DNA of 64,000 nt. Origin: Beijerinckiaceae bacterium. Lineage in GTDB: Bacteria > Pseudomonadota > Alphaproteobacteria > Rhizobiales > Beijerinckiaceae. The notes beneath the pieces were generated by a model. The model was not told where the DNA came from, made no database searches, and saw only the letters and a program-made list of their open reading frames with translations. A program made the position numbers and the translations under genes. The stretch is from contig CANJJI010000003.1 of NCBI GenBank assembly GCA_947474545.1, positions 1 to 64,000 of the forward strand, read 5' to 3'. Shown here piece after piece: positions 38,911-46,283 of the stretch; within the stretch, counting starts at the first letter, position 1; every line of letters starts with the position of its first letter.

Positions 38911-39055
38911 GGGAATGTTCAGCTGACTCCGGCATTTCAAGCGGCATTGCTCTTTCAAATGGCAGTGATAGTCTGGCCCAAGCTTCCGGGATACACGGCG
39001 AGCCGACAATAACAAAAAGGATTTGCAGCTACATGGCAAATCGCGGGAGGACGAC

Positions 39056-40276
39056 ATGCTCAACGTCAATCGTTGGTGGATAGTGGCCGCGTCATTTTCA
39101 GCGCTGCTGGTTGGCTCGGGGGTGGTGAACATATTCGCGACGGGCGTTTTTCTTGTCCCTGTCACACAGGAACTTGGTATTTCGCGCGGCGATTATACGT
39201 TTGGCCTGCTCGTCAACGGCATACTCACTGCTATTGCCGTGTTCATCTACGGCTGGCTGTATGATCGCTATGGCGTACGCAAAATCTTGTTGCCAGGCGT
39301 CCTGCTCTGCGCCCTGGCGACATATCTATATTCGCAAATGTCGCCCAATCTCACAGCGCTCTATCTTATTTTCGGTTTTGCCGGCCTGGTAGGCGGCGCA
39401 CAAACGCCGATGGGATACACCACTGTTATCAACCAATGGTTCGATCGCCAGCGCGGCCTTGCGCTTGGCATAGCCACTGCGGGCGTCGGATTTGGCGTCG
39501 TCTTCGTACCACAACTGGTGACCAAACTGATGGTGGGATACGGCTGGCGCGGAGCCTATATCGGCATAGCCATAGCAATTCTCATTCTCGCCTTTCTGCC
39601 CGCACTTTTGTTCATCCGCAATCCGCCAAGCGTCGAAAGTCAGGGCAAAGTCTCGACCGATCATCTGCCCGGCATGGCCGCATCTGAAGCTTTCGGCTCT
39701 TGGCGCTTCTGGGCGCTGACCGCTTCGTTTTTTGTGGCCGTAATGGCGATTAACGGAACGATCACCAATCTCGTGCCGCTGCTGCGAGATCGCGGCGTAG
39801 CCCCGCAAGATGCTGTTGGCGCATTGTCGTTTGCCGGTGGCGCGATTGTGCTTGGCCGTATGATCGCAGGCTGGTTCCTCGACCGCGTGTGGGGCTCCTA
39901 TGTCGCCGTGATCTTCTTCGGCCTGTCTCTGATCGGAATTGGCCTTCTGGCCAGCGGCGCCACCGGGCCTGTGGCCCTACTGGGCGCAGCTCTGTGCGGC
40001 GCAGGCGTTGGCGCTGAAATCGACCTCATGGGATATCTCATGAGCCGCTATTTCGGGCTGAAGAACTTTGGCAAGATTTACGGCCTGATGTTTGTGTTCT
40101 TCAATGTCGGTACAGGCCTTGGCCCTTATCTCAGCGGCATGACCTTTGATAAATACAAATCCTATACCCCAATCCTGACTGGATATATGGTTGCACTCGC
40201 TATCGTCTGCGCCGTGCTTTTGACGTTGGGCCCCTATCTCTTCAAGCCCGGCGAAGATCAGAGTGGAGCAAAATAA
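39056..40276 (+). CDS. MFS transporter
   Basis: Start MLNVNRWWIVAA; 12 TM-like segments; WLYDRYGVRKIL motif. Confidence 0.9.
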   Translation: MLNVNRWWIVAASFSALLVGSGVVNIFATGVFLVPVTQELGISRGDYTFGLLVNGILTAIAVFIYGWLYDRYGVRKILLPGVLLCALATYLYSQMSPNLTALYLIFGFAGLVGGAQTPMGYTTVINQWFDRQRGLALGIATAGVGFGVVFVPQLVTKLMVGYGWRGAYIGIAIAILILAFLPALLFIRNPPSVESQGKVSTDHLPGMAASEAFGSWRFWALTASFFVAVMAINGTITNLVPLLRDRGVAPQDAVGALSFAGGAIVLGRMIAGWFLDRVWGSYVAVIFFGLSLIGIGLLASGATGPVALLGAALCGAGVGAEIDLMGYLMSRYFGLKNFGKIYGLMFVFFNVGTGLGPYLSGMTFDKYKSYTPILTGYMVALAIVCAVLLTLGPYLFKPGEDQSGAK

Positions 40277-40300
40277 CAACAGTGTAACAGGACCTTCGCC

Positions 40301-41500
40301 ATGTCTCTCGCCAGCAGCACATCCCGCGCAAAATCATCGACAGCACAAGCAAGAGGCAAATCGCCCGGCGTGGACTTGGCGACGACGAAGCCCGGCACGC
40401 CTGGCGGCATATTCATGCGCCAGTTCTGGCTCGCTATTCATCGCAGCGAGGATCTGGCCAAGGGCGAGGCCAAGCCAATCACCATCATGAATGAAAGTTT
40501 CACGCTCTATCGCGGGCAAAGCGGGCGGGCGCAGGTAATAGATTCAGCCTGCCCGCACCGCTGGGCGCCCATGCATCTGGGCTGGATCGAGGGAGATGAT
40601 ATCCGCTGCGTCTATCATGGCTGGAAATTCGATTGCACAGGCCAATGTATCGAACAGCCCGCCGAAGAAGCTGGCTTCGCCCGCAAGGTTAAGATTGGCA
40701 GTTACCCCACGCAAGAATATCTCGGCTTGATCTGGTGCTATTTCGGCACGGGCAAGCCGCCCGCTTTTCCGCATTTTCCCCACCGCGACACGCCCGGCAT
40801 TATCCAGGCCTGGAATGTCGAACATGTGCCATGTAATTACCTGCAGAGTTTTGAAAACAGCATGGACGAGGTGCACGTGGCCTTCACCCATGCGCCAGGC
40901 GGCTCACACGCCAAATTATCGGCGGACCTGCCCATCCTCAGCACCGAGGAGACCGACTGGGGCATGATGCGCTACGGCAAGCGCAAAACGGGTCTTGTAC
41001 GCCAGACCCTGCATTACGCGCCCAATCTCACGCGCGTGATCGTGCCGCCCGTCGCCGGCATGGACGGCGTGGGCGGCTGGCCGGAAATCTATTTCAGCTT
41101 CACGCCAGTGGATGACGAAAATCATCTCTGGCTGATCACCTCCCATATCGAACTCAACACCGATGCCGAGCGCACAGCGTACAAAAAGCAACGTGAGAAA
41201 TACGAAAAGGAGCTCGCCTCCGCGCCAGCCTCAGTCGATGTCGCGCGCGACCTTATGGCCGGACGCGGCAATTATGCCGCTACCCGCCATCCGGATCTCG
41301 CCATCGTTCAGGATATCGCCGTGCAGGCCGGCCAGGGCCGGATCAGCAATCGCACACATGAGCGGCTCGGCCGCTCGGATGCAGGCATCATCGGCTGGCG
41401 CAAGATTCTCACCCGCGAATTCCGGCTAATCGCCGAAGGCAAAAAGCCGAAGAAGTGGAAGAACCCGCCCGCAGACGTGAAACCAACTCTCGGCTTTTGA
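40301..41500 (+). CDS. Rieske (2Fe-2S) aromatic ring-hydroxylating dioxygenase alpha subunit-like
   Basis: Rieske CPHRWAPMHLGWIEGDDIRCVYHGWKFDCTGQC (CxH..CxxH) and mononuclear iron motif NSMDEVHVAFTH. Confidence 0.92.
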   Translation: MSLASSTSRAKSSTAQARGKSPGVDLATTKPGTPGGIFMRQFWLAIHRSEDLAKGEAKPITIMNESFTLYRGQSGRAQVIDSACPHRWAPMHLGWIEGDDIRCVYHGWKFDCTGQCIEQPAEEAGFARKVKIGSYPTQEYLGLIWCYFGTGKPPAFPHFPHRDTPGIIQAWNVEHVPCNYLQSFENSMDEVHVAFTHAPGGSHAKLSADLPILSTEETDWGMMRYGKRKTGLVRQTLHYAPNLTRVIVPPVAGMDGVGGWPEIYFSFTPVDDENHLWLITSHIELNTDAERTAYKKQREKYEKELASAPASVDVARDLMAGRGNYAATRHPDLAIVQDIAVQAGQGRISNRTHERLGRSDAGIIGWRKILTREFRLIAEGKKPKKWKNPPADVKPTLGF

Positions 41501-41506
41501 AGGCTC

Positions 41507-43030
41507 TCACTTCAATCCGGCAAAGGCATCGTCGAGTTTTGCCGAGGCTTCGGCCAGTTTGGCGCGGCGCTCGTCGTGCCATTTAACGTCAATGGCCAGC
41601 CGCGCCTTTTCAGCTGCCATCATGCGCGCGACTTCTGCAGGCTGCGGGCCGCCAATCCCCTTGCTGGAGGCAATCATGTTCTCCGCGGTGAGGCCGCGCT
41701 TGAACTGCTCTTCGCCCAGCGGCAATGTCGCATTCTCCATGCCAAAATGTTTGGCAGCTTCGACATAGATGCGCTGCGCCTCGGCATAGGGAATTTGCGC
41801 GGGACGCAGGTTGTTGCCACGCCCGAAGTTTACAATTTCCGATGCGAAATGATGGCCGACACGGAATGGCACATCCGCATCCCGTTGCAGAATGTCGGCA
41901 AGCTCCGTCGTCATGGAATAGTCGGCATTGACTTCATCCAGCGCGCGCGGCGCATTGAACACCAGCGTCTTGAGCAGGGCGGCAAAGTCTCGATAGAGCA
42001 GACTCGATTCCTTGATGACATTATTGGGTTGATCCCCCTGCTTGGGATCGATGAACGGCTTGTAATCGCTCATACCCGGCGAGACATTATGCGCCACGAA
42101 CATAAAGGTCTGGGCATGCCCGATGACATTGCTCGCCTGTGCGCGAACAAACACGAGGCCTGACGGATTGCGCTTTTGCGGCATGATAGAGCTCGTGCCG
42201 GTGAGATCGCCCTCGGCCATCAATATCCAGGGCTTAGTCTGCGCATATTGCGCAGTGATATCGGCAATCAACCCGCTGATTGTCAACGCGCCAGATGCAG
42301 CATTGCCAACGAGCTCAGCGCCGCTGTCGATGGGCGAAACCTGATTGGCGTCATAGGAATTCTCCAGCACACTGTCGAAACCCAGCAAGTCCGCGAGACG
42401 GGGGCGATTGACCGGAAAACTCGATGTGCCCAAAGCGGCTGCGCCTAACGGCGATTGATTGAGGCGCATCCAGGATTCGCGCATACGTTCAGACGTACGT
42501 GCAAAAGCGCTGGAAAACGACAGCAAATAGTGACCGAAAGTCACCGGCTGCGCCTGCACGCCCCATGTGTAGGACGGCAGGATGGCGTTGGGATTCTTCT
42601 CTGCCAGCGCCAGCAACGCTGCCCGCGCCTTGTTCAACTCGTCGAATGAGGTCAGCACATCTTCGCGAATTTGCAGGCGTTGTGTTGTCGAGCCTATATC
42701 CTGGCGGCTGCGGCCCGAATGCAAACGCGTGACATCCGGTCCACCTGCAGCAATCAGATCTTTCTCGACAATGAGATAATTGCCGGAGCGTTGTGCGCCC
42801 GGCTGCGAGGCCTTGGCGACAGTTGCGTTGAGCGCATTAAAAATTTTCGCGCCAAGTTCTTTCGGAACAATTTTCTCCTCAACCACCATGACAGCGGAAG
42901 CCTTGTTGATTTCATGCAGCCAGAAAAAGAGATCGCGTTTTTGCTGCGCCATGGCAGGCCCTATCGTGAGAATTGCGAGCGTGGCGGCAAGCGGCATCGC
43001 CGCGCAGCGCGGGAAAGAATGGACTGACAT
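41507..43030 (-). CDS. argininosuccinate lyase/fumarase superfamily protein with predicted signal peptide
   Basis: SGRSRQDIGST, AQPVTFGHYLLSF, TSSIMPQKRNPSGL superfamily motifs; N-terminal PLAATLAILTIGPAMAQQ looks like an export signal. Confidence 0.85.
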   Translation of the reverse strand: MSVHSFPRCAAMPLAATLAILTIGPAMAQQKRDLFFWLHEINKASAVMVVEEKIVPKELGAKIFNALNATVAKASQPGAQRSGNYLIVEKDLIAAGGPDVTRLHSGRSRQDIGSTTQRLQIREDVLTSFDELNKARAALLALAEKNPNAILPSYTWGVQAQPVTFGHYLLSFSSAFARTSERMRESWMRLNQSPLGAAALGTSSFPVNRPRLADLLGFDSVLENSYDANQVSPIDSGAELVGNAASGALTISGLIADITAQYAQTKPWILMAEGDLTGTSSIMPQKRNPSGLVFVRAQASNVIGHAQTFMFVAHNVSPGMSDYKPFIDPKQGDQPNNVIKESSLLYRDFAALLKTLVFNAPRALDEVNADYSMTTELADILQRDADVPFRVGHHFASEIVNFGRGNNLRPAQIPYAEAQRIYVEAAKHFGMENATLPLGEEQFKRGLTAENMIASSKGIGGPQPAEVARMMAAEKARLAIDVKWHDERRAKLAEASAKLDDAFAGLK

Positions 43031-43057
43031 TGCTTCCTCCTCGTTTGAAAAAGTTTT

Positions 43058-43861
43058 TCAGATTGAAGACATGGCTTTCGCATTCGCCGCTTTGACCTTC
43101 GGCCACAATGGCGCTGAAATACCAGCATATTTTTCCTGATCGCCCGGCGGGATGAAACCCGCAATCGCTGTCTGGAATGCCGGCCGTCCTTTGCTGCGCT
43201 CGTACCAATCCGTCACTTTCGGAAAATGATCGCGCCATAGCCCGGCGCAACTTAGAAATTCCAGGCGATAAAAAAACGACAGCAATCCTGCATCGGCAAG
43301 CGTAAACTGCTCACCCACGAGCCACGGGCCTTTGTCCAGCGCCTTTTCCATATCCCGGAAATGGCGGATGAAGCGGATCAGCGCCTCGTGAACAACCGCT
43401 GCATCAAGCCCGTCCGCCATCATCTTCTCCCATTTGGCGCGCTTGGCCGGATCGGGAATTTTCGCATATCGCGCTGCACGCTCCTCCGGAGGTTTCTGCA
43501 TAAGCTCGTGCCGGAAGACGATTGAAGCGGTCATGGTGTTGATGGCGTCGTGGATCGTATCTTCTTTCTTGGTCCAGAGCCGCACATGCGCATGCCCCAG
43601 TGCGCCCGCCGGACGCAGCGGCTTATCGGTAAAAGCCTCATCGAGATATTCGTTGATGACAGTAGATTCGATGAGAATATGGCCATCGTGGATCAGCGTT
43701 GGCACGACAGCATTAGGATTAAGCTTCATATACTCGGGCTTGAACTGATCGCCTGTATGCAGGTTCAGCAGGTGCCCATCATATGCCAGTTCTTTTTCAG
43801 CAAGAACCATGCGCACTTTTGCTGCGCAAACGGCTGTAGGCGCGTGGTAGAGAGTAAGCAT
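43058..43861 (-). CDS. glutathione S-transferase family protein
   Basis: MLTLYHAPTAVCAAKVRMVLAEKELAYDGHLLNLHTGDQFKPEYMKLNPNAVVPTLIHDGHILIESTVINEYLDE. Confidence 0.92.
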   Translation of the reverse strand: MLTLYHAPTAVCAAKVRMVLAEKELAYDGHLLNLHTGDQFKPEYMKLNPNAVVPTLIHDGHILIESTVINEYLDEAFTDKPLRPAGALGHAHVRLWTKKEDTIHDAINTMTASIVFRHELMQKPPEERAARYAKIPDPAKRAKWEKMMADGLDAAVVHEALIRFIRHFRDMEKALDKGPWLVGEQFTLADAGLLSFFYRLEFLSCAGLWRDHFPKVTDWYERSKGRPAFQTAIAGFIPPGDQEKYAGISAPLWPKVKAANAKAMSSI

Positions 43862-45872: not shown

Positions 45873-46283
45873 ATGAAGTTGCCAGTTTCTTTTACAGCCC
45901 TCGGACTGATCTTCGCATACGGCATTGGCGGCCCTGCAATGGCAGCCGGAGAGTCACTAAAACCCTCGGACAAGGCAGCCCTTCAAGCCGCAATGTTCCA
46001 GCACATAGACTCTCAGCTCGTGAATGGCGCCTTCCTCCGCTTGAACACCAAAGAAGGCCGCGCGGAGCCGCTGGCTCCCACCAAATCACACCCGATGATA
46101 CTGCGCATGGGCGAAAACTTTGTCCTGTGCTCGGATTTTCGCGGCCCGGACGGCAAGGATGTAAACATCGATTTCTACATGGCGCGTGCAGGTACAAAAT
46201 ACGTCGTCTTTCATACCGAGGTTGGCAATCGTACGCCTCTGGAACAATTGATGTCTTCCGGGAAAGTTCAACCGGTCGATTAA
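45873..46283 (+). CDS. secreted hypothetical protein
   Basis: Signal peptide MKLPVSFTALGLIFAYGIGGPAMAAG; 136 aa; preceded by GGAGGG-like SD (ATGGAGGGATTCCAAC). Confidence 0.7.
   Translation: MKLPVSFTALGLIFAYGIGGPAMAAGESLKPSDKAALQAAMFQHIDSQLVNGAFLRLNTKEGRAEPLAPTKSHPMILRMGENFVLCSDFRGPDGKDVNIDFYMARAGTKYVVFHTEVGNRTPLEQLMSSGKVQPVD

Follow-up and report, generated by a model that had tools for sequence, protein, structure and literature searches.

The minus-strand gene at positions 41507–43030 of the window (the whole 64,000-nucleotide stretch of Beijerinckiaceae DNA that was analysed) encodes a protein of a real, conserved and previously undescribed exported branch of the well-known aspartase/fumarase superfamily. 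Judging from its sequence and from a structural model, we incline to regard the protein (507 aa, ATG start) as a catalytically competent lyase of this superfamily that works in the periplasm. In favour of an active lyase we count the signal peptide present in most of 125 relatives versus none of 15 outgroup proteins of the argininosuccinate lyase (ASL) type, the EDDS-lyase fold, purifying selection, the host's own ArgH, PurB and FumC, and the gene overlap with a TctC receptor in two signal-less close relatives. Against it we count the loss of a catalytic His and its partner Glu, which could be a loss of turnover, the neighbourhood that is not conserved and the existence of signal-less members.

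In the study of enzyme evolution the aspartase/fumarase superfamily is a classic, and its enzymes serve for making N-substituted aspartates. An exported branch in which the supposed leaving-group acid is lost and the base loop kept is a natural test of whether this acid is necessary. More tentatively, a deep and widespread clade may have moved to the periplasm, probably once, may have lost its His-Glu pair in roughly the same evolutionary step and may eliminate fumarate from an adduct there. With the superfamily otherwise cytosolic, this would, if true, be its first periplasmic branch, and its chemistry would dispense with the classical acid. It would also mean that many Proteobacteria have an overlooked source of extracytoplasmic fumarate, and would correct a set of annotations as "argininosuccinate lyase." In the literature searched, no paper described a periplasmic fumarase, aspartase or ASL, which is not proof of absence.

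Relatives and active site

From genomes, plasmids and GTDB contigs 125 family proteins were collected, mostly from Alpha- and Betaproteobacteria, which are about 37–67% identical to the window protein and separate from the cytosolic ASLs (about 30% identical to it). Public records call them "argininosuccinate lyase" or "lyase family protein." They occur unevenly: a member is present in 7 of 51 species from the window's genus, in 37 of 397 genomes at the level of its family and in 4 of 299 sampled Pseudomonadota genomes, but in Achromobacter 40 of 41 genomes have one, mostly a single high-scoring member each. Some members are plasmid-borne, and one (L104) is from a Desulfobulbaceae MAG. The gene is under purifying selection, with a dN/dS of about 0.15–0.25 versus relatives; synonymous sites are near saturation.

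The active site was compared in an alignment, in window numbering, of the 125 members and the 15 outgroups. The segment GRSRQD (residues 106–111; 42698–42715, minus strand), which reads GRSRND in ASL, contains Gln110, diagnostic of the family (125/125). In YTWGVQAQP (residues 154–162; 42545–42571, minus strand) Trp156 occupies the position of the ASL His. The Glu that in ASL forms a pair with it (in goose delta crystallin, E294 and H160; PMC2779060) is replaced by Val293 (42152–42154, minus strand). The catalytic SS loop SSIMPQKRNP (residues 280–289; 42164–42193, minus strand) has invariant positions. Over the whole protein, all 125 members keep H104, R107, S108, D111, T155, S280, S281, M283, P284, Q285, K286, N288, P289 and R296. 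The earlier note had pointed to a replaced His in the THLQ motif, and indeed Trp156 aligns unambiguously with it (T155 and A160-Q161-P162 are shared, and His is found in 15/15 outgroups). The note's reading of the altered His thus stands, but the usual residue in the relatives is Asn rather than Trp, the partner Glu is replaced too, and the SGRSRQD that the note saw as kept has Gln110, like the whole family, for the Asn of SRND.

Where ASL has its His, Asn (105), Trp (3), Val (1), Met (1) or His (1, in L044, whose start is uncertain) occurs among the 111 members scored as exported, and His (9), Asn (3) or Trp (2) among the 14 signal-less ones; Trp, Val and Met belong to the window's subclade. 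The partner Glu is present in 15/15 outgroups and in 9/9 members of a cytosolic clade with His, and is Asn in 91 of the 111 exported members and Val in the window protein. Because the Glu is replaced alongside the His, the dyad has been lost as a pair. That Trp marks export was considered and rejected, since Trp occurs in two signal-less members as well (L159 and L161) and the majority of the exported ones carry Asn. Specific for the family are also Q110 for the ASL Asn, G157-V158 for the ASL Leu-Gln, and H314-N315, G319 and D322, which replace the ASL arginine-side motif KG..YNKDMQEDK. The window protein reads HN-V-SPGMSDYK where ASL reads KG-LPLAYNKDMQ; the arginine-binding motif is gone. 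All features of the exported clade are found in it: the signal peptide, Q110, T-x-G-V at 155–158, H314-N315, G319, D322 and SSxMPQ(R/K).

A mechanism can be proposed on this basis. After export, for which Sec is likelier than Tat, the protein would assemble to a tetramer, homotetramers with composite active sites being characteristic of the superfamily; in it the SS loop (Ser281, Lys286, Asn288) and Thr155 would hold an X-substituted succinate. Ser280 would abstract the proton from the beta-carbon, an aci-carboxylate would form, and X would depart unprotonated by the classical His-Glu pair, as must happen in the nitrosuccinate lyase CreD. The products would be fumarate and HX outside the cytoplasm, and the fumarate could then be taken up or reduced. 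The leaving group X is not arginine. Most likely the enzyme belongs to the accessory genome and serves for scavenging or detoxification.

It is also conceivable, though unlikely, that the protein has been repurposed as a non-catalytic periplasmic binding, sensing or structural protein that has retained the fold and the dicarboxylate-binding loop, for which delta-1 crystallin with its retained ASL fold is a precedent. Such a role would be consistent with the loss of the His-Glu dyad as a pair, with a former His position at which Asn, Trp, Val and Met are all tolerated, and with a solitary gene that has no surrounding pathway. However, the general-base Ser and the entire SS loop are invariant in 125/125 members at identities down to about 37%, which argues for catalysis. 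Moreover, sister enzymes are active with Leu170 (CreD; PMC13411527) or Gln159 (EDDS lyase; PMC12363623) at the place of the His, so that the His change alone does not suggest an inactive protein. The authors of the CreD study leave open whether protonation of the leaving group is required (PMC13411527).

Still more doubtful is an active enzyme with another chemistry than beta elimination to fumarate, one that lactonises, isomerises or decarboxylates a tricarboxylate as do CMLE or trans-aconitate decarboxylase. The window protein has a weak profile similarity to both of these, the His, the Glu, the equivalent of Asn116 and the region 314–322 are all altered, and TctC receptors, found near some family genes, bind carboxylates; but the much closer relatives, ASL and EDDS lyase, are fumarate-forming lyases, and it is a lyase of this kind that we prefer.

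Export signal and tree

The signal peptide (residues 1–28; 42947–43030, minus strand) reads MSVHSFPRCAAMPLAATLAILTIGPAMA followed by QQ, with probable cleavage between AMA and QQ, and is indicated by signal-peptide rules, by AlphaFold and by a make-up that is conserved in relatives. The pLDDT is below 50 at residues 1–28 only and the fold is confident from about residue 30, which fits cleavage at this site. The window protein lacks a twin arginine, which makes Sec more likely than Tat as the route of export. With a loose rule 110 of the 125 family proteins were signal-peptide-like (111 with L143, added by eye) and none of the 15 outgroups, but this rule is unspecific, firing on 11% of internal Met starts, and the figures to be trusted are those of a strict rule, which 86/125 members including the window protein and 0/15 outgroups pass. 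Among the controls, 9 of 1620 internal Met starts passed the strict rule, as did 13 of 22 TctC receptors (positive control), while none of 20 LysR proteins did. It should be noted that the family members are related and that their counts are therefore not independent. Although the N-termini defy sequence alignment, they retain the composition of a signal peptide, consistent with selection for export.

The earlier note had called the signal peptide convincing, and this judgement is borne out by the strict rule and by conservation across a deep clade, including relatives that are 57–67% identical. Relatives that start downstream without the signal, which the note had named as evidence to the contrary, are only a minority, and on the tree they appear as secondary losses (L159/L161, L099/L178 and L190).

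The tree was built without the N-terminus and without columns 156 and 293. The family is a single clade (support 100/100), in which a cytosolic clade with intact dyad (100/99), composed of betaproteobacterial MAGs, is sister to the remaining family. The exported set has a support of 92/82, and of 72% SH-aLRT with long branches omitted; support for it as one group is thus moderate and depends on the long outgroup branch. Four changes on the tree explain the signal-peptide label, which we read as one gain of the signal and losses in L159 plus L161, in L190 and in L178 plus L099. These signal-less members show that in some lineages the enzyme does its job without depending on export. The window protein groups with L156 (67% identical, exported, Trp), near L157 and L158.

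That the window protein itself is cytosolic, its signal peptide being removed by a downstream start or being non-functional, is very unlikely. A Met is present at residue 12, and L159 and L161 from the same genus are signal-less. The upstream ATG, however, is preceded by a strong Shine-Dalgarno sequence (GAGGAGG at 43036–43042, minus strand, by direct reading, within the preceding bases CGAGGAGGAAGCA), a start at residue 12 would be without a positive charge, and the signal make-up is conserved in relatives whose bodies can be aligned and whose N-termini cannot.

Some observations on single groups may be added. In the cytosolic sister clade (L044–L048, L050, L052–L054 and L060) His and Glu are kept (PAYTHGVQAQ), and genes for a TctC receptor or an aldo/keto reductase are often close by. 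The gut betaproteobacterium Turicimonas muris has four members (L177, L178, L190 and G790:C19:59417-60778), L177 with and L178 and L190 without a signal peptide; one match has a TAA in the matched frame. In one subclade (L049, L051, L056, L008, L009 and L165) an insert of about 40 residues with two Cys follows the signal peptide, e.g., ACKTTEECNAQAARIGA, and is possibly a small disulfide element.

Family assignment and comparison with known enzymes

The assignment to the aspartase/fumarase superfamily made in the earlier note is confirmed by Pfam Lyase_1 (PF00206; 106.2 bits versus a cut-off of 27), with ASL_C2 also matched above its threshold. The superfamily SS-loop pattern GSSxxPxKxN is recognised in TSSIMPQKRNP, where the preceding Gly is Thr, as it is in some other members. 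In a profile search the window protein reached the threshold of no curated NCBIfam family: it scores 227.6 bits on the argH equivalog TIGR00838 (cut-off 279.5), 28.1 on the nitrosuccinate lyase model NF052556 (equivalog cut-off 650), 197 on PRK06705 (883) and 173 on XcbC (575), and is far under the cut-offs of pcaB and purB. The host genome (4.8 Mb, 286 contigs) carries three further Lyase_1 genes, namely for the true ArgH (590 bits on the argH model), PurB and a FumC-type fumarase (659 versus a cut-off of 665, the shortfall being due to translation from an internal start codon), and the window lyase is thus not needed for those steps.

The closest solved structures are those of EDDS lyase (6rx8/6g3d), with argininosuccinate lyases next. 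Likewise, the AlphaFold model (36 sequences, monomer) has its best PDB match in EDDS lyase (TM 0.83, 26% identity), followed by ASLs and delta crystallins. The EDDS lyase from Chelativorans sp. BNC1 (PDB 6g3d–6g3i, 6rx8), which adds amines such as ethylenediamine to fumarate, shares with the window protein the fold, the SS loop and the GRSR-D segment and likewise has no His in the YT-x motif (Gln159), but it has no known signal peptide and retains the dyad Glu. Its substrate-near residues are R112, N113, Q159, N288, D290 and Y320 (PMC12363623), of which two of six are kept in the window protein (R109 and N288), whereas N113, Q159, D290 and Y320 are replaced by Q110, W156, S290 and M320. With four of six differing, the EDDS-like substrates that had been proposed for activity screening find no specific support. 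An ordinary ASL or EDDS lyase that has merely acquired a signal peptide is hardly credible: the annotation of the relatives and the nearest structure would fit, but the argH score is below its cut-off, the arginine-side motif is absent, the true ArgH is encoded elsewhere in the genome, and the EDDS lyase pocket is mostly altered.

ASL and delta crystallin have in common with the window protein the fold, the order of Lyase_1 and ASL_C2, the SS loop and YT-x-x-x-AQP; they differ from it in being cytosolic and in having the His-Glu dyad, the Asn in SRND and the arginine-side motif YNKD-Q-ED. CreD, which belongs to another branch of the superfamily, has also lost the His, and the loop consensus proposed for it, SSxMPxKRNP (PMC13411527), is matched by the window protein. 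The PRK06705 family and XcbC (coenzyme M pathway, Xanthobacter type) align over nearly the full length within the ASL branch, but for the proteins covered by these models no signal peptide is stated.

Two published observations may concern family members and are taken as leads only. In Achromobacter xylosoxidans three "argininosuccinate lyases," predicted Tat substrates, were found in the periplasmic fraction (PMC11533796), which according to the authors contained much cytosolic contamination (PMC11533796). This contamination and the mostly single high-scoring member per genome are the reasons why the proteomics is no more than a lead. In Advenella a "putative argininosuccinate lyase" was up 6.4-fold on mercaptosuccinate, a fumarate adduct (PMC5373536). 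We suspect that in these reports the name might also denote mislabelled TctC-type receptors.

Gene neighbourhood

ORF clustering of about 100 loci revealed no recurring partner or operon; all it gave were common gene types (LysR, TctC) whose distance varied. A search of all loci for the window's neighbour genes yielded no conserved partner and remote similarity at most. In two species of the window's genus, signal-less lyases of the Trp type (L159:6888-8363, minus strand; L161:7041-8513, plus strand) have a TTG start overlapping the TGA with which a TctC/Bug receptor gene ends; the receptors of the two loci share 84% identity. In those species the receptor, which binds carboxylates, would sit outside the cytoplasm and the lyase within it; in the window it is the lyase that has the export signal. 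The overlap is the sole functional hint and hints at an external carboxylate as substrate.

In the window, the Pfam neighbours of the lyase are MFS, Rieske oxygenase, GST, DLH and Amidohydro_2. The earlier note had given the position of the reading frame correctly, leaving the minus strand unstated, and had placed it directly downstream of a glutathione S-transferase gene. The glutathione S-transferase-like gene (43058–43861, minus strand) does end with its stop codon 27 bp upstream of the lyase ATG on the same strand, and the two are probably co-transcribed, but the link is not conserved in the relatives' loci that were searched. Convergent to the lyase gene, at 39023–41500 (plus strand), lie genes for an MFS transporter and then a Rieske oxygenase with a LigXa-like C-terminus, which look like an aromatic-acid uptake and degradation pair. 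At 45873–46283 (plus strand) a protein of 136 aa without Pfam match is encoded, which has a clear signal peptide by the strict rule.
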